From: Spirosoma montaniterrae
GTDB lineage: Bacteria > Bacteroidota > Bacteroidia > Cytophagales > Spirosomataceae
Assembly: GCF_001988955.1 (NCBI RefSeq)
Contig: NZ_CP014263.1
Span: forward strand, 558,001 to 622,000
Direction of reading: 5' to 3'
Length of the DNA stretch: 64,000 nucleotides
Within the stretch, counting starts at the first letter, position 1. Each line of letters begins with the position of its first letter. The notes under the pieces were generated by a model. The model worked only from the letters and a program-made list of their open reading frames with translations. It searched no databases and had not been told where the DNA came from. Made by a program: the position numbers and the translations under genes. Positions 21,815-33,548 of the stretch are shown one piece after another.

Positions 21815-23440
21815 TCAAAAATCAATATCTGTCAACTCAAAATTAGCTTTGAGCGGGATAATACCACCTTCTTCGGCACCGGGGTGGTAGATGATGATTT
21901 CGGGTTGAATACCCTTCTGTACGTTGCCGATGTCGCGTTTGCGGTTGCCATTGGCGTCGAGAATAAGCCGGACCCGGTAGCGACCCGGACGCAGCCGTGC
22001 GAAGGTGTAGGTCGGTGTGCCATAAACCGAGCGCACAACCTGGTATTTTTCGTCCAGCAACTCAATCACGAAATTCCGGTCGGGGCGATTGACGCGGCCA
22101 GAAATCAGGCCGAAACTTTCTTCATCGGCAATGCGGTACTTAACCGAGTAACGCGATGAAGTATCGCCCTGTACGCTGATAAACGCGCCTTTCTGGAGCC
22201 GAAACAGCAGCGTATCGCGTAGCTCCGTTTTACGTTTAAACATCAGCCGCGAGTAGTTGTTACTCCACCGGAAATCGCTGGCTGTCAGTTTAAACGGTTT
22301 CGTGCTGTCGGGGCCAATCACGATCAGATTCGTATCGACGCGGAATACAGGTTTGCTGAACGTGAGCGTAAAATCGAGGTTATTGTCAATGGGTTCGCTG
22401 GCAGTGGGCGCAACCTGCACGGTGAGCGGCTTACGGTCTTTGGCGCGGGTTTTCAGGGGCGAAAAATAGACCCGTTCTTTCAATTCGGTCACATTCCCGA
22501 CCGAGTCTTCGGCGGCCACCGTGATGTTGATGGTATCGCCCGCAGCCCGGTTGGCAGGCCGAAACAGCCGAATCATTTTTGGCGATTCGAGAAACGACAC
22601 CAATGTATCGCCGGGTTTATTGAATTTGATCCGGTAATCGGCAATGCCGCTGCTGAGTTCAAGGCCCAGCGTTTCGTCGGTGCGTTCGCGTCGGCTGACA
22701 CGCGGCTTGCCATAACCCCGAAAAGCAATCAGATTAATATCGGTGTAGTTGCGGTTCAGGTTCAGCACCGAATCGCGAAACCCGACGCGCTCGCCGGGGG
22801 TGTTGTTCACTAAATTCAGGTCTTTATCATCGAAGCCATACACTTTAAAACGACCCGCTTTCACATTTTCGATGCGGAAGTTACCGTTGCTGTCGGTGCG
22901 GGCGTAGTAGGCCGGGCGTTTTCGGTTGATGGGCAGCGTATCGTTTTCACCGAACAGCCCCACGACAAAGCCCAGAATAGGCGTTCGGGTTTCGTCATCG
23001 ACCACGTTCCCGCTCAGATACAGCGAATCGATGACCGGGCCGGTGCTGAATACAATCTTGCTGTCGGTGGTCACGTTGCGCTCCGTAACGTCTTTGATAC
23101 CATCTGAGAAGTTAATGGTGTAGGTCGTATTTTTTTGCAGGGGCCGGTCGAAATTCAGCCGCAGGCCGGTTGGCAGGGCGCGTACCGAATACGTGTTGCT
23201 GTCCTGGGGCGTAATGGTGATTTTCTGCTGGATATTTTCCGTGCTTACATACTCGTTGTATTCGAGCGTAACGGTTTTGCCTGCGTAGTTCAACTGGCGC
23301 AGTTTCGGAATGCTGCTGACCAATTTGGGTGCGATGGTATCTTTTTTACCACCCGGCGGCTGGGCCACCTGCGCACAGTTCTGCAACAGAATTGGAAGAG
23401 AAACCAGAAGCGCAAAAACAATAAGAAGTCGGAACGGCAT
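21815..23440 (-). CDS. Ig-like (Big_5) domain lipoprotein
   Basis: 541 residues with a lipoprotein signal (LPILLQNC, Cys 22). APKLVSSIPKLRQLNYAGKTVTLEYNEYV opens a Big_5/SbsA-type Ig domain, and a second such block appears near residue 340 (DNNLDFTLTFSKPVF). Between them lies a carboxypeptidase-regulatory-like domain (GNFRIENVKAGRFKVYGFDDKD). This is a standard Bacteroidota surface or periplasmic lipoprotein family with an Ig-like N-terminus following QPPGGKKDTIAP; function unknown. Divergent from the cytoskeletal-type operon, with a palindrome in the gap. Confidence 0.8.
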   Translation of the reverse strand: MPFRLLIVFALLVSLPILLQNCAQVAQPPGGKKDTIAPKLVSSIPKLRQLNYAGKTVTLEYNEYVSTENIQQKITITPQDSNTYSVRALPTGLRLNFDRPLQKNTTYTINFSDGIKDVTERNVTTDSKIVFSTGPVIDSLYLSGNVVDDETRTPILGFVVGLFGENDTLPINRKRPAYYARTDSNGNFRIENVKAGRFKVYGFDDKDLNLVNNTPGERVGFRDSVLNLNRNYTDINLIAFRGYGKPRVSRRERTDETLGLELSSGIADYRIKFNKPGDTLVSFLESPKMIRLFRPANRAAGDTINITVAAEDSVGNVTELKERVYFSPLKTRAKDRKPLTVQVAPTASEPIDNNLDFTLTFSKPVFRVDTNLIVIGPDSTKPFKLTASDFRWSNNYSRLMFKRKTELRDTLLFRLQKGAFISVQGDTSSRYSVKYRIADEESFGLISGRVNRPDRNFVIELLDEKYQVVRSVYGTPTYTFARLRPGRYRVRLILDANGNRKRDIGNVQKGIQPEIIIYHPGAEEGGIIPLKANFELTDIDF

Positions 23441-23450
23441 ACGCGTGTAG

Positions 23451-23512
23451 TGCCGAAGCTCCAGCTTCGGCCATGCAATCCTAATCTACCTGCCAAAGCT
23501 GGAGCTTCGGCA
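23451..23512. repeat. GCCGAAGCTCCAGCTTCGG palindrome pair
   Basis: The left arm 23451-23470 and right arm 23493-23512 are inverted copies with one mismatch, and each arm is itself palindromic (CCGAAGCT-CC-AGCTTCGG). It lies just upstream of the Big_5 lipoprotein start in the divergent gap to 23697. The rest of that gap shows TACTTTCG at 23628, a weak -7 box for the plus-strand operon. Confidence 0.75.
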
Positions 23513-23696
23513 CCACATACTACAAAGGTAAACGACGAACTCGCTATTCGTGGATGTTAACGAATGTTAAAGCCGGTAAATCGGGCCGTTCGTCAATTTT
23601 ATAGGCCGATATATCAAACCGGGGCCTTACTTTCGTTTTTCATACCAGTACACGCACGGTCGCTGTGCCAAAAGCTCCACAACCACTACGTCGATT

Positions 23697-24983
23697 ATGA
23701 AGCAAACGTTTCTCGTTGCCCTTGCTTTTAGCCTGTCAACGCTTTTTTTTCAGTGCGGTTCCGACCGAAAACGCGAACGAACCGCCGATAAACCCGCTGC
23801 TTCGACTGTCGAAAAAGCCCCGACGCTTGGCGAACTGCATTTTTTTCTGGAAACGTCGGCCAGTATGGGCGGCTACCTGAAAGGGGCTACCGAGTTCAAA
23901 AACATCGTGGCTGATTTCGTCACGAAAGCCAATCAAATTAAACCGCTGTCGCTACACACCATCTCGGCAGGCAAACCGCAACCACTCAACAGCGACATAA
24001 ACCAGTTTGTGGCGCAATTGGCAACTACGCCGTTGGCTACTGGCAAAAGTTCGGAACTGCACCAGATTTTCAGACAGGTAGGCGAGACCGCAGCGGGTAA
24101 TAACGTCGCTATTTTTGTGTCGGACTGCATTCTGTCGTTTCCCGACGCCGACATTCGGCGCGACCCGGAAGTGAATCGCAACAACGCAGCCAGTACGCTC
24201 AAGAATAATATGTACGACCAGTTTGCCCGGTTCAATAAACAAGGCATCGGGGCTACGGTTTATGCGTACACGTCGGCTTTCAACGGTACGTATTACACCT
24301 ACCAGAACCAGAAGCAAAAGCTCGTGGGCGAACAGCGGCCTTTCTACATTTGGGTGATTGGCAAACAGGCGTTGCTGGCCGACGTGAACCGGCAGTTGAG
24401 CGACCTGCTGTCAACCCAACCTACCAAACGGCTCGATTTCGGCGCGGTTAATCCGCTCAAAACCTATGATTTGTTTTTCTCGCTGAATAAAAAAGGCGAC
24501 TGGCGGGCCGTGCGTGGTAACGTTGCCGAAATTAAAACAGGCCGCAAAGCCGATCCGGTCGAATTTGCCGTTGGCCTGACCTTAGATAAACTACCTGCGT
24601 ATGCACAGGCAGAAAACTACATCCGGCAGAACCTGAAAACATCGGCTACCAATGGCGGGGTGAAGCTGGTAAACGTACAACGCCGGAACGCTGTGAAGAC
24701 CGACCGTTTGAGCGACCGTGAACAGAAATTGCTCAGTCAGCATTCGCATGTGCTGACATTCCGGGTTGAACAATTGTTCGATAATGAAGCCGACGTGACT
24801 CTGTCGCTACCTGCCCGTACTGATATGTGGTACGCTGATTGGTCTACGTCGGACGACCGCACCCCCGCTGGTCGGCGCAACAAAACGTTTGCATTCAATG
24901 AACTGATGACCGGGGTTCGCGAAGCCTACCAGTCGGGCAACAATGAGTATATTAACCTGAAATTTAAATTGATAAAGGATTAA
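23697..24983 (+). CDS. Von Willebrand A-like lipoprotein, first gene of the tubulin/actin-like operon
   Basis: 428 residues. A signal sequence ends at LFFQC (Cys 20), a relaxed lipobox. LHFFLETSASMGGYL places E-T-S-A-S (residues 52-56) where VWA domains have the D-x-S-x-S metal site. NNVAIFVSDCILS puts an Asp (143) at the end of a buried strand, as in the third metal-site loop. The fold call rests on these motifs and strand pattern, not on a close match. The C-terminal half is not recognised. It starts a co-oriented run of six genes with an 18-base gap to the next and probably sits on the periplasmic side of a membrane. Confidence 0.65.
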   Translation: MKQTFLVALAFSLSTLFFQCGSDRKRERTADKPAASTVEKAPTLGELHFFLETSASMGGYLKGATEFKNIVADFVTKANQIKPLSLHTISAGKPQPLNSDINQFVAQLATTPLATGKSSELHQIFRQVGETAAGNNVAIFVSDCILSFPDADIRRDPEVNRNNAASTLKNNMYDQFARFNKQGIGATVYAYTSAFNGTYYTYQNQKQKLVGEQRPFYIWVIGKQALLADVNRQLSDLLSTQPTKRLDFGAVNPLKTYDLFFSLNKKGDWRAVRGNVAEIKTGRKADPVEFAVGLTLDKLPAYAQAENYIRQNLKTSATNGGVKLVNVQRRNAVKTDRLSDREQKLLSQHSHVLTFRVEQLFDNEADVTLSLPARTDMWYADWSTSDDRTPAGRRNKTFAFNELMTGVREAYQSGNNEYINLKFKLIKD

Positions 24984-25001
24984 GCCAGATTCCCATTTCT
25001 C

Positions 25002-25376
25002 ATGTTCACTACCCTGTACGAACTTTTTCTGGGTCAGAATAACGACCCCATTTACGTTGACGAAATTTTTACGCCCGTTGGCACCATCACGCTTTTGGTG
25101 GCGTTGATACTGGCTCTTGTTTTTTACCTCGGCTTAGGTCGCTGGCGGTCGGTGTTTCATCGGGTGCCGCATTGGGTCATCACGCTGGTAGTGCTGTTGA
25201 TTTTTGCCTTTGCCTATGCTATTTGGTACGCCCTTGATCGCACCGGAGCCGACGATACCGACAGCTATATGACAGGGTTCGGCGGTATCAACGCGCTCTA
25301 TGCCGCTATTGAGTTTTTTGTTTTTTCCATTGCGCTCAAACGATTTTCCATCTTTGCCCGGCGGACGCCGTTTTGA
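25002..25376 (+). CDS. Small three-helix membrane protein
   Basis: 124 residues. Three hydrophobic stretches are clear: TPVGTITLLVALILALVFYL, HWVITLVVLLIFAFAYAIWY and GINALYAAIEFFVFSIALKRF. No family recognised. Spacing of 18 bases after the VWA-like gene points to the same transcript; it may anchor the cytoplasmic products of the next two genes at the membrane. Confidence 0.7.
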   Translation: MFTTLYELFLGQNNDPIYVDEIFTPVGTITLLVALILALVFYLGLGRWRSVFHRVPHWVITLVVLLIFAFAYAIWYALDRTGADDTDSYMTGFGGINALYAAIEFFVFSIALKRFSIFARRTPF

Positions 25377-25396
25377 TTGTAATTGACGTGAAGCTG

Positions 25397-25506
25397 TTCG
25401 GGACGTATGTCCCGAACCCAATAACAGCGGATATTTATCCGCCCAAACAAGTAATCTATGCGGACGAATGTCCGCTGTTAACTGATTCGGGATTTATATC
25501 CCGAAT
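25397..25506. repeat. Four-hairpin nested palindrome, GCGGAY family (copy 1)
   Basis: Four perfect hairpins lie in order: 25397-25416 (TTCGGGAC/GTCCCGAA), 25427-25442 (GCGGAT/ATCCGC), 25460-25475 (GCGGAC/GTCCGC) and 25485-25506 (ATTCGGGAT/ATCCCGAAT). The second pair is the inverse of the first, making a palindrome of palindromes. A second copy at 30746-30849 keeps every stem while changing bases on both sides. It occupies the gap between the small membrane protein and the tubulin-like gene. Confidence 0.85.
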
Positions 25507-25513
25507 AGCAACT

Positions 25514-27013
25514 ATGAAACTATTCGTATTTGGCATTGGCGGCACGGGGGCGCGTGTGCTGCGTTCGCTAACGATGCTGCTGGCGGCTGGCGCGAAAACT
25601 CCCGCCGACCTGACTATCGTACCTATTCTGCTCGACATGGACATGCAGAACGGCGACACCGACCGTACACTGCGAGCCGTTGAACTCTATCGAACCATCC
25701 GCAAAGGGGCCTATCGCGATACGGCTCAGACCGGACAGGCCGGGCAAAGCGGGCAGGCCGAACGTCGGACGTTTTTTGCTACGCCCCTGCAACCCCTCGG
25801 CACGCTCCAGGCCGATAATGCGCAGGAAAAAATCGGCGACTCTGTGCTGCCTAAACTGACTGAACATCAGGGGACGTTTGAAGAATTTTTGAACGTGAGC
25901 AGCATGGACGACATCGACCGCGAATTTCTGAAACTGCTGTACGATAACTCGGCCAAGCCCACCAGTGCCGAACTGAAACTGAACCTGTCGGTCGGTTTTA
26001 AAGGCAATCCGAACATTGGCAGTGTGGTGTTTAACTCACTCGAAGATTCGGCGGTGTATAAATACTTTACCGGCGCATTCAACGATGCCACCGACCGGGT
26101 ATTTATCGTCAGTTCTATTTTCGGCGGCACTGGCTCGTCGGGTTTTCCGCAGTTAGTAAAGTTATTGCAGCACCCCAGCCAGAAAATGCCCATTCGCACG
26201 GCTAAAAAAGGAGCCGTGACCGTAATGCCCTATTTCGCGCTTGAAGAAAATAGCCAGAGTTCGATAGATCAGGACCGCTTTCTGTCGAAAACCAAAGCGG
26301 CTTTATCGTACTACCAGCAGCAAATCAGTCTCGACGCGCTCTATTACATTGGCGATCAGCAGGGGGCAAAACTGTACCCGAACGTGGAGGGCGGAGCCAA
26401 GCAAACCAACAGCGCGCATGTTGTGGAAATGCTGGCCGCTGAAGCCGTTCTGGATTTTGCCCGCAAGCCCGCCGACGAACTTTCGGACAACAAACGGTAC
26501 TACGAGTATGGGCTGAAACGCAATGACCGCCGGCTCGACCTGCCGCATTTCTACGAACCGACCTACCAAAATATGCTGGAGCCGCTGATGCGGTTTGTCT
26601 ACGCGACCAAGTTCGTGCTCGACTTCGTGCCCGGCAATCTGCGCGAAGCCTTCGCCAAAAACCTGAATCTGGCGCAGGAACTGAATACCAGTACGTTCTA
26701 CGTCTCGCTGACTAACTTTATGGCAAACCACTTTAAGCCGTGGTTGCAGGAAATGGCCGACAACGACCGGGCCTTTCATGCCTTCGATCTGAATGCCAAT
26801 TTCAACGCGCTGGTTCGCTCGAAGCAAATCGAAACCGGCTTCTTTAGCAAAGGTATCAGCGATGGTTTTTTGCTCGATGCCGCCGGAAAAACCGAAAATA
26901 GTATGCAGGCTACGTTTCCGCAGTCTGAAGCGCGGTTCATGCAAATGCTCATCGACGTAGCCGACAAATGCCGCGAAAAGCTCGGCACTGTCAGCCGCGA
27001 ATTAACAAACTAA
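25514..27013 (+). CDS. Tubulin/FtsZ-superfamily GTPase-like protein
   Basis: 499 residues from the ATG at 25514. The N-terminus MKLFVFGIGGTGARVLRSL gives the first glycine-rich nucleotide loop (GIGGTG, 7-12). VFIVSSIFGGTGSSGFPQLV at about 197-216 holds GGTGSSG (204-210), the tubulin signature (GGGTGSG/T in FtsZ). An insertion of about 100 residues separates the two more widely than in FtsZ, and the C-terminal 250 residues are helical and not recognised. It is not FtsZ itself. Distant bacterial FtsZ-like families next to VWA proteins have been described and proposed to remodel membranes; this gene fits that kind. I chose the start at 25514 since upstream in-frame residues translate the hairpin repeat. 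Confidence 0.75.
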   Translation: MKLFVFGIGGTGARVLRSLTMLLAAGAKTPADLTIVPILLDMDMQNGDTDRTLRAVELYRTIRKGAYRDTAQTGQAGQSGQAERRTFFATPLQPLGTLQADNAQEKIGDSVLPKLTEHQGTFEEFLNVSSMDDIDREFLKLLYDNSAKPTSAELKLNLSVGFKGNPNIGSVVFNSLEDSAVYKYFTGAFNDATDRVFIVSSIFGGTGSSGFPQLVKLLQHPSQKMPIRTAKKGAVTVMPYFALEENSQSSIDQDRFLSKTKAALSYYQQQISLDALYYIGDQQGAKLYPNVEGGAKQTNSAHVVEMLAAEAVLDFARKPADELSDNKRYYEYGLKRNDRRLDLPHFYEPTYQNMLEPLMRFVYATKFVLDFVPGNLREAFAKNLNLAQELNTSTFYVSLTNFMANHFKPWLQEMADNDRAFHAFDLNANFNALVRSKQIETGFFSKGISDGFLLDAAGKTENSMQATFPQSEARFMQMLIDVADKCREKLGTVSRELTN

Positions 27014-27016
27014 AGG

Positions 27017-27155
27017 GGAACACAGATTGAACGGATGCGACAGATTCACACAGATTATTGGTAGGTCAACTAAACAGCAAGCTGGGTGGCCGTTGCCATA
27101 CGGCTTGTACCAAAAAATCTGTGTCAATTCGTAGTATCCGTTCAATCTGTGTTCC
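27017..27155. repeat. Inverted repeat, CACAGATTNAACGGAT family (copy 1)
   Basis: The 20-base arms 27017-27036 and 27136-27155 (GGAACACAGATTGAACGGAT) are exact inverses, with a second CACAGATT arm pair nested inside. A related, longer perfect repeat is at 53487-53593. It fills the gap between the tubulin-like and actin-like genes. Confidence 0.8.
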
Positions 27156-27170
27156 AATTCCCTTTCCCAT

Positions 27171-30100
27171 ATGCCACATATACTTCGCATCGACAACGAC
27201 CCCAACGTTAGTCAGCAAAATCATCAGGGCTGGACCGGCACCCAAAGCGGGCTGACCGGTAGCCGTATCGAACACATTAAAGATACGTTATCGGGCGGCA
27301 GCATTGCGGCCAAAGCCGGTACGTCGATTCCATCGCCGTTTGCGCGGCTGTATTTGTTCGACACGGCCTTTCGGCTGGTAAAAAACGACGCAAACCCGCG
27401 CGAACTGACACTGTACCACGTGCTGGTGTCGCACGCGCTCGACATGCTCGAACTGCTGTTTCAGGCGGGCAATAGTCCCGACCTGACTTACCGCGTCTGG
27501 AACCGGACCGAACGATTAAGTGCGCTAAACCAGAAAAACGGCACGCCCACGGCGTCAGGTGCGCTCGTGCAGCGGCATTCGCATCAGATTCTGGCGAAAG
27601 CCCTCGAACTCGACCTCCGGGGCGATCTGGCAAATCTGTACCAGTTTACACTTATCTACTACAAAGGTGCCCTGCTGGGCGGCACCTCGCCCCTGACGCT
27701 GGTATTTACCTCGCCCAACTGGGAACAGGAACGGCAGAACAAATACATCGAGTCGCCCCGCAGTACCAACGGGCGGGTGTTGTTTCAGAACGAATACGTA
27801 TCGCTGGCCGAACGCGACGAAGCTTTTGTGACCTACCTGCGCCGGTTATACGATGGAGCCGGTAATCAGTTGCTGGGTGGTTTCAAAGAGTACCTGTACA
27901 AAGTATTTTTCGATAGCCCGGTGCCGCTGCCGATAACGCCCAATACTACGCTCGATAGTTTTGAGCCGATTCAGATTGGGGGCGAAAGCAACTCCGTCTT
28001 GCAGGTGTTGCCGGGGCTGGCCCTCTACAAAGTTCGAGAAGCCGATTTGCTACAGGATATTGAGCAGGGCAGCGACTTCGTGATGGAGCCAACGGCAACC
28101 CACTACCAGCGCGAAACACGGCACGGTGCCCCAACGGGCGTTCGCAAACCGCTGGCCGTAGCGTCACGCATGGAAGTGAGTGGTCGGTACGTTAAAAATA
28201 CGCCCTGGAACCCGCAAACGGTGGTCATGCGCTCGTCGCTGAACAACCTTGCCGAGGGAGGGCTGCTGGCCGACCGTTACCTGCCGGGAGTCGACAACGT
28301 GAAATACCCGTTTGTGACGACCGACGATTTTCTGGAGGACTTCCTGATTCGGATGCCGTTCAAGATTAACAATGCCCGATTCCTGACGGGCGTGCCGGGC
28401 GATACCGACGTGCTGCTGCCGATACGGAAAGAGTACTTCAATTTCTTCACCACCGACGACCTGAAACGGCAACTGAGCATCCGCGAAGAAAGCCGGGGCA
28501 TGGATCGGGTGCTGATTGTTGCGCTACGGATTCCGATTCGGAATAACCGCAGCGTCGATTTTCGCAAAGAATACAACCTCGGCAAGCCCGAAACGGTGAT
28601 TGATTTCCGGGCGGGGCTGGCGTTTTTCCCATTCTATCGCATCACCGTGCCCGAACCCGACTGGCAGCGACTCAACCAGTATACCGTTATGCTGGCCGAC
28701 TGGAGCGACTACGAAACGGGTTTCCAGCCTGCTACCTCGCTGCGTTTTTTCCAGATTCCGAACGTGGTGAATAACCAGCCGGTTGGGGTCAATACGCCGG
28801 AAGTGCGTTCGCCGAAGTCAGAACAGCCCGCGTCGTATTATTACAAGGTGGCGCAACCGTTCGATCTGGCTGAGGTGCGGCTGGAGCGCAATGGCATTCC
28901 GTATCGCGGGCTGGTGTTGCCGCAGTTTACGCTTATCGACCAGAAAGGCTATAAGCCCTTCACGTTCGCTATCGACTTCGGCACTTCCAACACGCACATT
29001 GCCTATACCGATGCCGTAGCGGGCGGGGTCGATCCAAAAGCACTGACCATCAGCGACGACCGGGTAAATCTCGACAAAGACGAGTTGCAGATGGTGATGC
29101 TCAACAAACCGTATGATGGTACCGACAAAACCACCTACGAGCGGTATCGGTTGCCGGTAAGTTTCGGCAAAATTACGCCGATGGAACCCCTCATCCGGCG
29201 CGAATTTATACCGCCTATCATCGGCAAAGAATTTGGTTCGCCGTTTGCTTTCCCGCTTCGCACCACGGTTTACGAAAAAAGCGGTTTCACCGATAGCCGC
29301 GATAACTTGTTCAGCAAGGTCAATCTCGGCTTTAACATCGACCTTGAAAGTGGCAACACGGGCGTAAACCACTATGTAACGAACCTGAAATGGCTGTTTG
29401 AAAACCAGCCCGCCGATACGTTGAACCGGCCCCGTGTTCGGGCATTTTTCGAGACGTTGCTGCTATTGATTCGTAACAAAATCGTGCTGAATCAGGGCGA
29501 TATATCAAAGGCGGGCGTAGTCTGGCTGGCTCCGTCGAGTATGCGGGCCATGACCGAAGAAAGTCTGGTGCAGGAGTTGAAACAGGCATTCGAGAATGTG
29601 TTCGGTCATACGCGCAACTTCCGCGACATACCCGTACCGGAGTCGCTGGCTCCCTATTATTACCTGGTAAAACAGGGCGTAAAATCGTTTGCCGATACAG
29701 TCAACGTAGACATTGGGGGTGGCACAACCGACATTATGCTGTTCATGCGGCAGCAGGACCGTTACCTCAACACGTCGTTCCGGTTTGCCGGATACGACAT
29801 CTGGGGCGGTGGCCTGAACGAGCAGGGCTACCCGTCGCATCGCAAAGACAATGGCTTTGTCGAAAACTATAAGAAGTACCGCAAAACGCTGCAACAGGAG
29901 CAGGGGCTGGAGTTTGCCACGCTCGATACGTTCCTGAACACGCCCGAACTGACCGCCGAAGACATTGTCAGCCTGTTGTTTAAGTACAACGATCAGTTCA
30001 AGTTTGTGCAGTCGATTCAGGATGGCAAACCGGCCATGCGTCTGGTGCTGTACCTGCACTATGCGTCAATCGTGTATCATTTGGTACAGGTCATCGAATC

Positions 30101-30719
30101 GCACGGACTGGGGCTGCCGCGCTACCTGACCTTCACGGGGCGCGGGAGTCAGTACCTGAACATGCTGGGGTCGCTGCCCCGCCTGATTACGTTTACGAAG
30201 ATGCTGTTCCGGTCTTATACAACGCTGCCGGTTCCGCCCGATTTTGAAGTATTGCTAACCAACAATCCGAAAGAAACGACCGCCAACGGGGCTGTTCTGT
30301 TCGAGAACTCAGGCAGTGAAAAATCGCAGTACGAACGTCGGGAAACCAGTTCGTACTGGGGGCAGCAACTCGACAAAAGCACGCCCTTCGAGTATCGCCG
30401 AACAACTATTGGCGAGGCCCGCGCCCAGAAAGATTTCCACGATTCGGTGCTGCTGAACGTGAAAAGCTTCCTGGAGAAAACACTGCTCGACCGCGACGTT
30501 GCCTATTTCCTGCGCGAATACAATATTCAGACGCCAGAGAAATACTACGAGTTTCTAACCGGCTCCGACGTTACGCGGGGCGGGCGCATCTACGATAGCT
30601 ACATGCTGGCGCGGATGGGCATGGAACGCAGCCCGAATGAAGCTATTTCGGAAACGTTCTTCTTCCTGCCGCTCAAACACGCACTCTACGAACTGTCGAA
30701 ATTTATCGCCGAAGGCTAA
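27171..30719 (+). CDS. Large protein with C-terminal actin/Hsp70-like ATPase domain (SrfB-like layout)
   Basis: 1182 residues. FAIDFGTSNTHIAY (Asp 602, phosphate-1 loop), VNVDIGGGTTDIMLF (Asp 847, GGGTTD, phosphate-2) and YLTFTGRGSQYL (G990, adenosine motif) appear in the order and spacing of the actin/Hsp70/MreB superfamily. The 590 residues before the first loop have no family I recognise; the protein's size and an ATPase core placed late resemble the SrfB group, which I offer only as a comparison. No signal peptide or membrane helix, so it should be cytoplasmic. It is central in the operon, right after the tubulin-like gene. Confidence 0.75.
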   Translation: MPHILRIDNDPNVSQQNHQGWTGTQSGLTGSRIEHIKDTLSGGSIAAKAGTSIPSPFARLYLFDTAFRLVKNDANPRELTLYHVLVSHALDMLELLFQAGNSPDLTYRVWNRTERLSALNQKNGTPTASGALVQRHSHQILAKALELDLRGDLANLYQFTLIYYKGALLGGTSPLTLVFTSPNWEQERQNKYIESPRSTNGRVLFQNEYVSLAERDEAFVTYLRRLYDGAGNQLLGGFKEYLYKVFFDSPVPLPITPNTTLDSFEPIQIGGESNSVLQVLPGLALYKVREADLLQDIEQGSDFVMEPTATHYQRETRHGAPTGVRKPLAVASRMEVSGRYVKNTPWNPQTVVMRSSLNNLAEGGLLADRYLPGVDNVKYPFVTTDDFLEDFLIRMPFKINNARFLTGVPGDTDVLLPIRKEYFNFFTTDDLKRQLSIREESRGMDRVLIVALRIPIRNNRSVDFRKEYNLGKPETVIDFRAGLAFFPFYRITVPEPDWQRLNQYTVMLADWSDYETGFQPATSLRFFQIPNVVNNQPVGVNTPEVRSPKSEQPASYYYKVAQPFDLAEVRLERNGIPYRGLVLPQFTLIDQKGYKPFTFAIDFGTSNTHIAYTDAVAGGVDPKALTISDDRVNLDKDELQMVMLNKPYDGTDKTTYERYRLPVSFGKITPMEPLIRREFIPPIIGKEFGSPFAFPLRTTVYEKSGFTDSRDNLFSKVNLGFNIDLESGNTGVNHYVTNLKWLFENQPADTLNRPRVRAFFETLLLLIRNKIVLNQGDISKAGVVWLAPSSMRAMTEESLVQELKQAFENVFGHTRNFRDIPVPESLAPYYYLVKQGVKSFADTVNVDIGGGTTDIMLFMRQQDRYLNTSFRFAGYDIWGGGLNEQGYPSHRKDNGFVENYKKYRKTLQQEQGLEFATLDTFLNTPELTAEDIVSLLFKYNDQFKFVQSIQDGKPAMRLVLYLHYASIVYHLVQVIESHGLGLPRYLTFTGRGSQYLNMLGSLPRLITFTKMLFRSYTTLPVPPDFEVLLTNNPKETTANGAVLFENSGSEKSQYERRETSSYWGQQLDKSTPFEYRRTTIGEARAQKDFHDSVLLNVKSFLEKTLLDRDVAYFLREYNIQTPEKYYEFLTGSDVTRGGRIYDSYMLARMGMERSPNEAISETFFFLPLKHALYELSKFIAEG

Positions 30720-30745
30720 AGCCGCTCGGCGGCTGTCGGCGGCTG

Positions 30746-30849
30746 TTCAGGACTTATGTCCTGAACAACTTAACAGCGGACATTCGTCCGCGTAGTACCC
30801 AATGCGGATGAATATCCGCCATCAAAAAGGTCGGGACGTATGTCCCGAC
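30746..30849. repeat. Four-hairpin nested palindrome, GCGGAY family (copy 2)
   Basis: Hairpins at 30746-30765 (TTCAGGAC/GTCCTGAA), 30776-30791 (GCGGAC/GTCCGC), 30804-30819 (GCGGAT/ATCCGC) and 30830-30849 (GTCGGGAC/GTCCCGAC) match the copy at 25397 in order. Paired changes (C-G to T-A; GGG/CCC to AGG/CCT) keep each stem. Loops stay at four bases in all stems here. Lies between the actin-like gene and the next. Confidence 0.85.
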
Positions 30850-30870
30850 CAGCGTCCAGCTAAACCCGTT

Positions 30871-32133
30871 ATGAGACAACCAACTATTTACGTTTTGGGG
30901 CTTGCCCTGCTGTTGACTGAATCCGTTGCGCTTGCCCAGACTGATTCGGCCCGGAATGCGCCCAACCCGACAGCTATCGGCATGATTCGGGCCACGCTCG
31001 AATTTCTGGCAACCGACGAAAAATCGTTCGGTAGGGTTCCTAACCCAATCTGTCAGCCCTGTAGTACCTACGAAGAGCTTACAGCCTTTGCGAAAAAGAA
31101 CCGACTTCGGGGGGGCGACGAATTAGTTAACGATGCCCGTCGGGAGGCCCGGAACGCACTTCAAACGAACCCGGCCACGTTGCCCGCCACCTTACAGGCT
31201 TTTCTGCTCGACCGTGTTGCGGGTGGTACTAAAAGCAACCGAAAGCAACTGCCGACATTCGCGACGTTTCAGCAAAAGCTGAGCGCAGCCGCCGGAGGGC
31301 AACCTGCTGAAACAGAACCCATTGTTGCTGCCGACGACTCCGCACTAACCGACACTGCCAGCGCAGCTACCGACGAAACGCTAACCACTGAAGCAGAGCT
31401 TGAAACTGACCCTACTACCGCAAAACCATTGTCAATTATGCAGTACTTACCCCTGATTTTTTCGCTTATCAGTTTAGTTGGTGTTGTGCTGTTATGGATA
31501 CGTAGTCAGAACAGGAGCGAACCCGTTAAACAGAGTTATGACGGCCAGATTGCCGCCCTGCAAGACCGCATAAAACGGCTGGAAGACGCAAACAGGCAGT
31601 TAAGAAACCAAACTGAGCCTCGGCCCGGCAACCCAACACCTCGACCACAACCCTCTGCTCAGTCGCAGCAAACACCGGTTCAGCCGCGTATGCCGATGGC
31701 TGAGTCAGAACCTACTTCGCCCGCTGCCGACGTTGTGCCACCGATAGTTAGTGCAACGCCACCGCCCGCGTCTTCCCCAATAGCTGGCCCAATGCCAAAT
31801 AGCTTCCGCTCAACCCCATCGCTGTTATATGGGCGAACGGCTGATCTGGGCGACGGCTTCAGCAGCAGCGGCTTATCGGCCACTCCTGACCGCGACACCG
31901 TATTTGAGATTCATCGGCAGACCGATACGCAGGCCGTATTTCAGGTAAGCGATCAGCCCGACCTGCAACGGCTCGCCCTGTCGGACCCGTATTCGTATCT
32001 GAACGACACCTGTAGCTATCAGATGCAGCCCCGGCCCGGTAGCCGGATTCGGACGGAAAAGCCGGGTAAGCTATCTTTGCAAGGCGATAAATGGGCCATT
32101 GTTGAGAAAGCCCAGATTAGCTTTCTCAGCTAA
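30871..32133 (+). CDS. Single-pass membrane protein with coiled coil and Pro-rich linker
   Basis: 420 residues from the ATG at 30871. A signal peptide ends near SVALAQ (residue 22), followed by a helical domain with CQPC (about 61-64). A membrane helix lies near 191-210 (YLPLIFSLISLVGVVLLWI), then a short coiled coil (AALQDRIKRLEDANRQL), a Pro/Ser/Gln-rich linker of about 100 residues and a C-terminal domain of about 100 residues (FEIHRQTDTQAVFQVSDQPDLQRLAL). If the signal peptide is used, the C-terminal half is cytoplasmic and could meet the actin-like or tubulin-like protein. No family recognised. Followed after 17 bases by the last gene of the operon. Confidence 0.7.
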   Translation: MRQPTIYVLGLALLLTESVALAQTDSARNAPNPTAIGMIRATLEFLATDEKSFGRVPNPICQPCSTYEELTAFAKKNRLRGGDELVNDARREARNALQTNPATLPATLQAFLLDRVAGGTKSNRKQLPTFATFQQKLSAAAGGQPAETEPIVAADDSALTDTASAATDETLTTEAELETDPTTAKPLSIMQYLPLIFSLISLVGVVLLWIRSQNRSEPVKQSYDGQIAALQDRIKRLEDANRQLRNQTEPRPGNPTPRPQPSAQSQQTPVQPRMPMAESEPTSPAADVVPPIVSATPPPASSPIAGPMPNSFRSTPSLLYGRTADLGDGFSSSGLSATPDRDTVFEIHRQTDTQAVFQVSDQPDLQRLALSDPYSYLNDTCSYQMQPRPGSRIRTEKPGKLSLQGDKWAIVEKAQISFLS

Positions 32134-32150
32134 GATATGCCACGCTTACT

Positions 32151-33548
32151 ATGACGATTGACGAACTGCGCGAGTGGATTAAAGACGAAATTGTACTGCA
32201 CGAAGGCGACGTGGCCGAGTGGGAATGGCGCAAAAAGGGCCTGACCACCGAAGCCAAAGCCATCGGTTTGTCAGATGCCGATTTCAGCCGGTTGGTCAAT
32301 CAGGTAAGCTTGAGTGTTCAGCCCGATTTTGGTAAAATCAGCGTTGTTCGCGACAGTATTCTAACGCTGGCCCGGCAACGACGCGGCAAACTGACCCCCG
32401 CCGACGTAGAGACACTGGTAAAACAGGCCGAACCAGCGCGGCTGTCGCGGGCGTTTGTGGCTGATAAGTGGATACCGGCACTGGTCCAAACGCTGCCTGT
32501 TGAAACGGAGGCCGTAACGCCACCGCCCGTTGTTGAGAATGCTCCGATTGTTGAACCGGCAACAACGCCCGGCGAAACTGCCGAGAGTATGCGCCGGAAA
32601 GTCACGGATAGCTTAGACGATTTCAAAGGACGGATTCCCGCTCCAGCCATTCGGTCATTGTTTCGAACCATTAATTTCGACGAAGCCGAACTCGCCGTTG
32701 CCATCTGGAGTTACCTCCAAATCCATGAGTACGTTCCTGAGCGTGAACTCATTAGTGATTCGCTTCGTGAGAAGTTGGTGTCGACCGACTGGCGGGTTCG
32801 CCAGCCCGAACCAGAATTATCGCCCCTTCCCCGCGAACAAGACCTGCCACCACCGCCTGCACCCATCGTGCACACGTTTACAGCCACGCCCGGTCGGGTA
32901 CGCAGCGGGCAGGACGTTCGGCTCGAGTGGGACGTGGCTAACCTGCTGGCTGTTACGGTCGATGACGTGGGCGAAGGGCTGAGTCCGCAAAACTGGGCGC
33001 GGGTCAACCCCCGAAAGACCACCGAGTATACCCTGTTCGACGCGCTGAACAACCCGCTCAGCACTGTGCGTGTAGAAGTGATCCCGAGTGACCGCAGCGG
33101 CTTATACGGTGTGCTGTTCGCGCTGGCCCTGCTGGCCCTGATTTATTTCTTCATACGCAATACAAACAATACGAGTCAGCAGCGGCAAACTGACCCGCCT
33201 GCTCGGGTAGAAAAGCGGGACGTGACTGAGCCGGCACAACCCCGAAAGAAGCAAAGAAGGCAGGAAACGGCGTCGGTGTCTACCGATGAAGCTTCGGATT
33301 ACCGCACACAGCTACCAGCTCCGAAAAAGGAAATAGAGACCGACTACGACGAAATTCTGGACGATGCCGGGCAGTTTGGCGAACGCAAAGCCCGCAAAGG
33401 CAACCGCTGGGGCCTCTGGACCGACGATGGCTGGCTTATTCGACCCAAATACGACGACATTACCGAATTTCGCAACGGTCGGGCCACGGTCATCAACAAT
33501 GGCAACGATTACCAGATCGACCCCGAAGGCAAGCGCATTCGGGAGTAA
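32151..33548 (+). CDS. Membrane protein with N-terminal helical repeats, Ig-like segment and WG-type C-terminus
   Basis: 465 residues, no signal peptide. Two similar helical regions (about 1-105 and 150-215) are joined by a Pro-rich linker. Residues about 245-310 (FTATPGRVRSGQDVRLEWDV, TVDDVGEG, NPRKTTEYTLFDAL) look like an Ig-type strand domain. A membrane helix lies at about 319-335 (YGVLFALALLALIYFFI), then a Lys/Arg-rich tail, and a C-terminal WG-repeat-like unit (GLWTDDGWLIRPKYDDITEFRNGRATV). TATCTTTG at 32072-32079 inside the previous gene could be an internal -7 box. Function unknown; operon position suggests an adaptor at the membrane. Confidence 0.68.
   Translation: MTIDELREWIKDEIVLHEGDVAEWEWRKKGLTTEAKAIGLSDADFSRLVNQVSLSVQPDFGKISVVRDSILTLARQRRGKLTPADVETLVKQAEPARLSRAFVADKWIPALVQTLPVETEAVTPPPVVENAPIVEPATTPGETAESMRRKVTDSLDDFKGRIPAPAIRSLFRTINFDEAELAVAIWSYLQIHEYVPERELISDSLREKLVSTDWRVRQPEPELSPLPREQDLPPPPAPIVHTFTATPGRVRSGQDVRLEWDVANLLAVTVDDVGEGLSPQNWARVNPRKTTEYTLFDALNNPLSTVRVEVIPSDRSGLYGVLFALALLALIYFFIRNTNNTSQQRQTDPPARVEKRDVTEPAQPRKKQRRQETASVSTDEASDYRTQLPAPKKEIETDYDEILDDAGQFGERKARKGNRWGLWTDDGWLIRPKYDDITEFRNGRATVINNGNDYQIDPEGKRIRE

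Follow-up and report, generated by a model that had tools for sequence, protein, structure and literature searches.

Why would a bacterium encode a tubulin-like GTPase and a giant actin-like ATPase in one operon? The question is raised by six genes, A to F (Table 1), in a 64,000-nucleotide stretch of Spirosoma montaniterrae DNA (assembly GCF_001988955.1, contig NZ_CP014263.1, positions 558,001 to 622,000), hereafter the window. An initial annotation of this DNA had described six co-oriented genes joining these two nucleotide-binding folds to a VWA-like lipoprotein, a three-helix protein and two single-pass membrane proteins, and all six open reading frames were confirmed, co-oriented and in place. 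As genome comparison shows, genes A-E are kept together across Bacteroidota. This conserved set points to an undescribed envelope machine, which may pair a tubulin-type with an actin-type protein; no other paper describing a tubulin-actin-vWA operon was recognised in a literature search that covered main texts and few subscription journals. Our preferred reading, tentatively held at a probability of roughly 45%, is that A-E form one envelope-bound machine driven by nucleoside triphosphates (NTPs), an accessory system that answers envelope damage or invasion and does not serve housekeeping division.

Conservation and distribution of the gene set

Of 150 genomes from the window's family, 58 have gene C, which is thereby represented in 16 of 36 genera; 56 of these genomes have one copy and two have two. 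We collected loci from 40 of the 59 places in this family outside the window, from 14 named hosts found through D, from five genomes of the wider phylum and from the window itself, and removed one duplicate record from these 60 (L094, which is the contig of L091). Since C or D served to find the remaining 59 loci, selection accounts for the presence of one of these two, but not for their adjacency or for the other genes. C and D are adjacent and co-oriented in 59/59 loci, A-B-C-D occur in order in 56, and A-B-C-D-E in 54. The five loci without the full order are three that meet contig ends (L080, L087, L096) and two divergent ones (L078, L097). The iterated profile of E also caught MotB/OmpA-like proteins, and the 12 such matches listed align only to its transmembrane (TM) and coiled-coil stretch; we therefore counted E by its C-terminal domain alone, which a dedicated profile finds in 55 of the 59 loci. 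F, present in 23/59 loci, is not a fixed member of the unit. Of the six genes annotated as an operon, the first five thus stay together and the sixth does not, and neither dispersal of the genes nor predicted folds lacking tubulin and actin cores, the two outcomes named beforehand as contradicting the annotation, was seen for those five. The prospect that unrelated genes merely happen to be co-oriented is negligible: the window has gaps of 137 and 157 bases between genes, which would suit it, but the two larger gaps hold inverted repeats and the order recurs across several bacterial families. On the conservation of gene order over the 59 loci, chance adjacency was rejected.

A more independent test of the link came from 247 genomes across the phylum. 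Six of them have C, and these are the same genomes that have more than a short match to D (one D is cut by a contig end, and one divergent match covers 178 positions). With at most two candidates scored per genome, the D profile matched 153 of the 247, in 147 of them by short matches which, among those listed (nearly all), span about 25-80 profile positions, mostly within 780-859. All three of the short stretches tested fit FtsA best, and we set such matches aside as ordinary actin-fold proteins. Named hosts among the matches listed are Pedobacter, Rudanella, Hymenobacter, Solirubrum, Prevotella, Sodaliphilus, Christiangramia and Maribacter; beyond Bacteroidota, coverage consisted of the named-host scan, plasmid records, phage records and viral contigs.

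Tubulin-type and actin-type cores

By computation, C has a predicted tubulin/FtsZ core with an intact nucleotide loop. It matches Tubulin_2 (PF13809) at 27.7 bits against a curated cut-off of 27, as do 28 of 29 C sequences at E 0.01 or better. The loop motif GGTGxxG, annotated as GGTGSSG at residues 204-210, does fall there when counted from the ATG at 25514 (a longer open frame begins upstream, with a TTG at 25373), and G204, G205, T206, G207 and G210 are invariant in all 29 sequences. Structure prediction and fold comparison, with FtsZ as the best match, bear out the tubulin-type core. The FtsZ C-terminal domain had no Pfam match in C or in the 29 C sequences.

Computation likewise gives D a predicted actin/MreB/Hsp70 core with invariant nucleotide motifs. 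The motifs DFGTSN, GGGTTD and GRG had been noted in D, and we find them at residues 602-607, 849-854 and 990-992. Across 28 D sequences D602, F603, G604, T605, D847, G849-G851, D854, G990 and G992 are invariant, and among these we take D602, G604 and T605 to be the phosphate-1 motif, D847, G849-G851 and D854 the phosphate-2 motif, and G990 and G992 the adenosine motif. In the predicted structure, fold comparison recovers an actin-type fold over residues 594-1157, again as annotated, and the C-terminus is modelled confidently as a helix. The Pfam actin-fold matches of D relatives are FtsA, EutA, MutL, Ppx/GppA and MreB, HSP70 not being listed; FtsA is the commonest, reaching E 0.1 or better in 16 of 28, with a best value of 6.8e-4.

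The frequency of FtsA among these matches, the FtsA-like fit of the short D stretches elsewhere in the phylum (3/3 tested) and the resemblance of C to FtsZ all suit a second FtsZ-FtsA-like pair, serving division, budding or cell shape. Yet the window's own D has no Pfam FtsA match, its genome has a further tubulin-superfamily gene that is presumably the FtsZ of this bacterium, and the unit shows patchy occurrence and exchange, which leaves a second pair of this kind quite improbable.

The lipoprotein and the membrane partners

A controlled profile match and a conserved E-x-S-type motif lead us to regard A as, most likely, a vWA protein whose metal site is changed. A profile of 58 A sequences, aligned by hhalign to a profile of 36 vWA domains from the same bacterial family, gave P 9.4e-6, a score of 44.8 and a probability of 82.8; the alignment brings the first strand and the metal-site motif into register. 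As controls, two unrelated profiles and the A profile in reverse scored 16.3-19.5, and 40 column shuffles at most 16.1. An earlier, smaller trial had given P 0.0022 and a probability of 5.2, against P 0.48-0.77 for its controls. Residues E52, S54, S56 and M57 are invariant in 26 aligned A sequences, and when all 58 rows were searched by pattern, 51 showed the E-x-S-type motif and six were missed. The canonical metal ion-dependent adhesion site (MIDAS) motif DxSxS is absent from A, the first position being E; only the divergent locus L078 has D there (DVTGSM). Pfam gave no vWA match in A and 25 relatives (26 sequences) or in five divergent A proteins, nor did the vWA/A profile match any sequence among solved structures. 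A lipoprotein signal with its cysteine at C20 can be read by eye and several relatives have a clearer lipobox; hydropathy finds no TM-like segment. The VWA-like lipoprotein of the initial annotation is therefore upheld, its vWA part by the profile match and its lipid signal by eye.

Hydropathy also supports the membrane partners: three membrane segments in B, annotated as a three-helix protein, a signal-like and one TM-like segment in E, one TM-like segment in F, and none in A, C or D. E and F had been called single-pass proteins with coiled-coil, Ig-like and WG-type parts; their single TM-like segments agree with this, E having a signal-like segment besides, and the WG match in F falls below the Pfam cut-off (21.3 against 25.6 bits). 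The open frame of E runs from 30802, and by eye its likely start is M24 (30871), which places the signal segment at the N-terminus. If the signal is cleaved, the C-terminal domain of E would face the cytoplasm, where C and D must be. Because this domain would be cytoplasmic and is the part of E retained in short relatives, the likeliest arrangement has B and E keeping C and D at the inner membrane and A reporting from the periplasmic side. The proposal of an envelope-level system is supported as regards its membrane partners and the conserved order of A-E, and is not supported as regards F as part of the unit.

This arrangement also bears on a chaperone-like role, in which D would act as an Hsp70-type ATPase, the vWA protein as co-chaperone and C as scaffold in handling envelope proteins. 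A would be periplasmic and D cytoplasmic, Pfam recognises no peptide-binding domain in D (whose N-terminal half is without fold assignment), and the families matched by D relatives are those listed above, without HSP70. We regard such a role as improbable.

Layout of the locus

Table 1. Coordinates of the six genes and their principal features, numbered from the first base of the window
Feature	Coordinates	Strand	Description
Gene A	23697..24983	+	vWA-domain lipoprotein (probable), 428 residues; motif and profile-profile match to vWA
A, MIDAS-like ETSASM	23850-23867	+	residues 52-57; second conserved Asp is residue 143
Gene B	25002..25376	+	124 residues, three hydrophobic segments; core member, 56/59 loci
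Gene C	25514..27013	+	predicted tubulin-like (Tubulin_2/FtsZl1-type) GTPase, 499 residues
C, T4 loop GGTGSSG	26123-26143	+	residues 204-210 from ATG at 25514
Gene D	27171..30719	+	giant predicted actin/Hsp70-fold ATPase, 1182 residues
D, actin/Hsp70/MreB-type core	28953..30650	+	residues ~595-1160, from the model range 594-1157 and invariant motif residues
Gene E	30871..32133	+	signal-like segment, likely periplasmic stretch, one TM-like segment, conserved C-terminal domain of ~75 residues
Gene F	32151..33548	+	single-TM protein, weak WG repeat; accessory, 23/59 loci

Several repeats lie between these genes. A palindromic element of about 115 bases separates B and C (25393-25509); a relative of it (73% identical, 30742-30856) overlaps the D-E gap, and further relatives occur elsewhere in the genome, often matching both strands. 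Most of the C-D gap is occupied by a different, imperfect inverted repeat (27017-27155, 43-nucleotide arms, 86% complementary). Upstream of the operon, a 26-nucleotide inverted repeat (92%) at 23446-23517 lies just past the start (23440) of a divergent gene, 21815-23440.

Additional partners in related loci

Eighteen of the 59 loci add a 437-606-residue protein with MotA/ExbB-type features (ZorA-like), and 17 of these 18 also add a protein of about 200-270 residues with a MotB-like N-terminus and an OmpA-like C-terminus (ZorB-like). PADLOC labels the pair ZorA (best 5e-6) and ZorB (best 1e-13). By Pfam, three proteins of each kind were tested: the MotA/ExbB-type protein matched above the cut-off in one (E 3e-5), below it in one (1.7e-4) and not at all in the third; the MotB/OmpA-like protein matched below the cut-off only (OmpA 1.4e-4 and 0.084, MotB 0.034 and 0.011), and in one not at all. 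The ZorA-like protein of L064 has, by hydropathy, a long C-terminal tail past its last TM segment. The pair is absent from the window locus, as is any MotB/OmpA-like protein, and a protein search of the window's own genome, run without a positive control, found no ZorA-like protein.

A retropepsin-like aspartyl protease lipoprotein occurs in 12 of the 59 loci (for example L065:15952-16521; one was tested by Pfam), and another large protein is added in four loci, and in a fifth at E 4e-4. Since L064 combines E and F with both the ZorAB-like pair and the protease, the window locus may have lost parts. Near the highly divergent C-D pair of L097 lie TerD genes (L097:1174-3062; one of the three was tested by Pfam), and a DnaK-looking protein, so identified by eye, directly follows the divergent D of L078 (L078:13936-15477).

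Cassette exchange and genomic context

In the window's genus, three loci hold one type of cassette and eight another, with common neighbours. Between types, C is 35% and D 27% identical, against 92-93% and 90-93% within types. The three upstream flanking genes have identities of 90%, 85% and 73% across types, much like those within types (92%, 85-86% and 74-81%), and the two downstream about 55-56% against 57-60%, some loci lacking some of these genes. Within its own genus the window's C is about 70% identical to one type and 36-41% to the other, yet a C from another genus is 80% identical to it. When 59 C proteins are placed in a tree, where the window's own join is unstarred and some deep forks rest on long branches, the genus falls in four places, one of them a second copy in one genome. 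Judged from these identities and the tree, the pattern looks like repeated replacement of whole cassettes at one site.

Three IMG/VR contigs (L141, L142 and L143, two of them near identical) carry A-B-C-D, followed in one by E and in two by a ZorA-like gene; they may be either viral or stray bacterial DNA. Plasmid records gave one D match, on a 1.77-Mb Prevotella replicon, and phage records no C match.

Among 140 proteins flanking 23 loci, 231 PADLOC models were matched, led by mad3 (5 proteins) and mad2 (4); within the best 25 of these, type I methyltransferase models matched 2-3 proteins and AriA two. Among 131 control proteins from 20 places in 16 genomes, 36 models were matched; mad2 came first (3), and the best 25 include no type I methyltransferase. 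In this comparison several models can match one protein, the samplings differ and nine flank genomes lie outside the controls. Two AriA/AriB (PARIS)-looking genes, recognised by eye, lie directly upstream of A in Hymenobacter setariae (L084:4577-6285), and genes of one cluster resembling HsdM occur at L070, L074 and L092.

Relation to known systems

The closest published relatives are the FtsZl1 (Tubulin_2) operons of Makarova and Koonin 2010 (PMC2875224), in which this protein is associated with vWA and OmpA proteins, kinases and a P-loop GTPase, and for which membrane remodelling was proposed; Bacteroides caccae is in their alignment. The annotation had named this vWA-linked FtsZ-like family and its proposed role, and had placed the actin-like partner outside it. 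The main text of that paper names no such partner: Hsp70, MreB, ParM and MotB are absent from the main text and actin appears only as background. Like those operons, ours set Tubulin_2 beside a vWA gene, present in the window too, and membrane proteins, and some loci have a candidate OmpA-type protein (the 17 with a MotB/OmpA-like protein, where Pfam OmpA is below cut-off in two of three tested and absent in the third). Unlike them, the window operon shows neither protein kinases nor the P-loop GTPase, for which no Pfam match was found among its six proteins. Conversely, the paper's main text mentions no giant actin-fold partner, no core proteins like B and E and no MotA-like protein accompanying the OmpA protein; its supplements list unnamed associated families. 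A 2023 FtsZ/tubulin phylogeny sets Tubulin_2 proteins aside (PMC9871819).

That association also favours a housekeeping role in membrane remodelling, in which an FtsZl1-type tubulin and an actin-like ATPase would bend or vesiculate the envelope in normal growth; the neighbours common to many family loci and the strong within-type conservation of C and D suit it as well. Against it stand the presence of the unit in only 58/150 family and 6/247 phylum genomes and the exchange of divergent cassettes at the same site, and we consider it rather unlikely.

The GAP1-N2 GTPase-centric conflict systems of Kaur et al. 2020 (PMC7159879) likewise bring tubulin homologues together with vWA proteins and, in other members, HSP70 near the membrane. 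The tubulin/vWA and HSP70 themes are stated there not to overlap, the systems are found mainly in firmicutes and actinobacteria, and their conserved core, unlike ours, is GAP1 with DO-GTPases. GAP1-M was found in 0/61 genomes, the window's own included (1/14 in the control set, Corynebacterium glutamicum), and the six window proteins have no GAP1 Pfam match; with no GAP1 in the 61 genomes, a GAP1/DO-GTPase system was rejected.

A Zorya system was rejected too, the six window proteins having no Zorya match; ZorC, ZorD and ZorE do not appear among the matches listed. Like ZorAB, whose ZorA has a long C-terminal tail (PMC11890865), the additional pair in our loci combines a long-tailed channel-like protein with a MotB/OmpA-like one; unlike it, this pair is missing from the window locus and in relatives sits with the tubulin/actin unit.

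The classic adjacent actin-fold/tubulin-fold gene pair at the inner membrane is ftsA-ftsZ, so an actin-tubulin pairing has precedent. Unlike FtsA, D is much longer, with an extra N-terminal part of about 590 residues; unlike FtsZ, C lacks a C-terminal domain recognisable by Pfam, and the vWA, B and E partners are extra.

A proposed accessory envelope machine

An accessory role remains the most likely for A-E because divergent whole cassettes exchange at one site and the unit is patchy. In the envelope-bound machine that we prefer, C would assemble (or switch) with GTP on the cytoplasmic face, and D, in the manner of FtsA with FtsZ, would be its actin-like partner and use ATP to read or remodel the C assembly. 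The pair would be anchored at the inner membrane by B and, from the cytoplasmic side, by the C-terminal domain of E, and periplasmic A would bind a ligand through its metal site and signal across. In loci with the ZorA/ZorB-like pair, a trigger or force could come from ion flow and from contact with peptidoglycan; in the window locus, which is without it, E or F may stand in. The job would be to sense and answer envelope damage or invasion, by phage or otherwise, under diversifying pressure. A more detailed version is a trans-envelope machine in which the tubulin-type and actin-type NTPases co-assemble with a periplasmic vWA readout and, in many lineages, an ion-driven ZorAB-like stator. Such an exchangeable conflict or stress system, joining two cytomotive systems to a rotary-type motor, is possible, though on the doubtful side.

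Several results weigh against the machine as we propose it. The T7 loop, which holds the FtsZ residues for GTP hydrolysis across the filament, could not be placed in C. Pfam support for the ZorAB-like pair is weak, and because the PADLOC ZorB model also matched one control protein (one that the ZorB-like group profile does not match), the pair, judged by profiles, is a resemblance to Zorya and not Zorya itself. Defence-island enrichment is not shown: the control proteins match defence models too and, given also the sampling differences noted above, we claim none. No nuclease, pore or toxin domain was recognised in the six window proteins, which have no PADLOC match except one at E 0.094, and many loci of the family have the same neighbours, unlike a typical defence island; this common site, together with the absence of a recognised effector, argues against a classical defence system.

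For the biology of these bacteria, the A-E set gives the long-predicted and apparently untested idea of FtsZl1 membrane remodelling a five-gene core with an actin-type partner. It offers two purifiable nucleotide-binding proteins and natural variants with and without an ion-driven partner, and because cassettes are exchanged within one genus, several versions can readily be compared at a single site. Should C and D co-assemble, they would be another actin-tubulin partnership beside FtsA-FtsZ, and probably one that is not tied to division.
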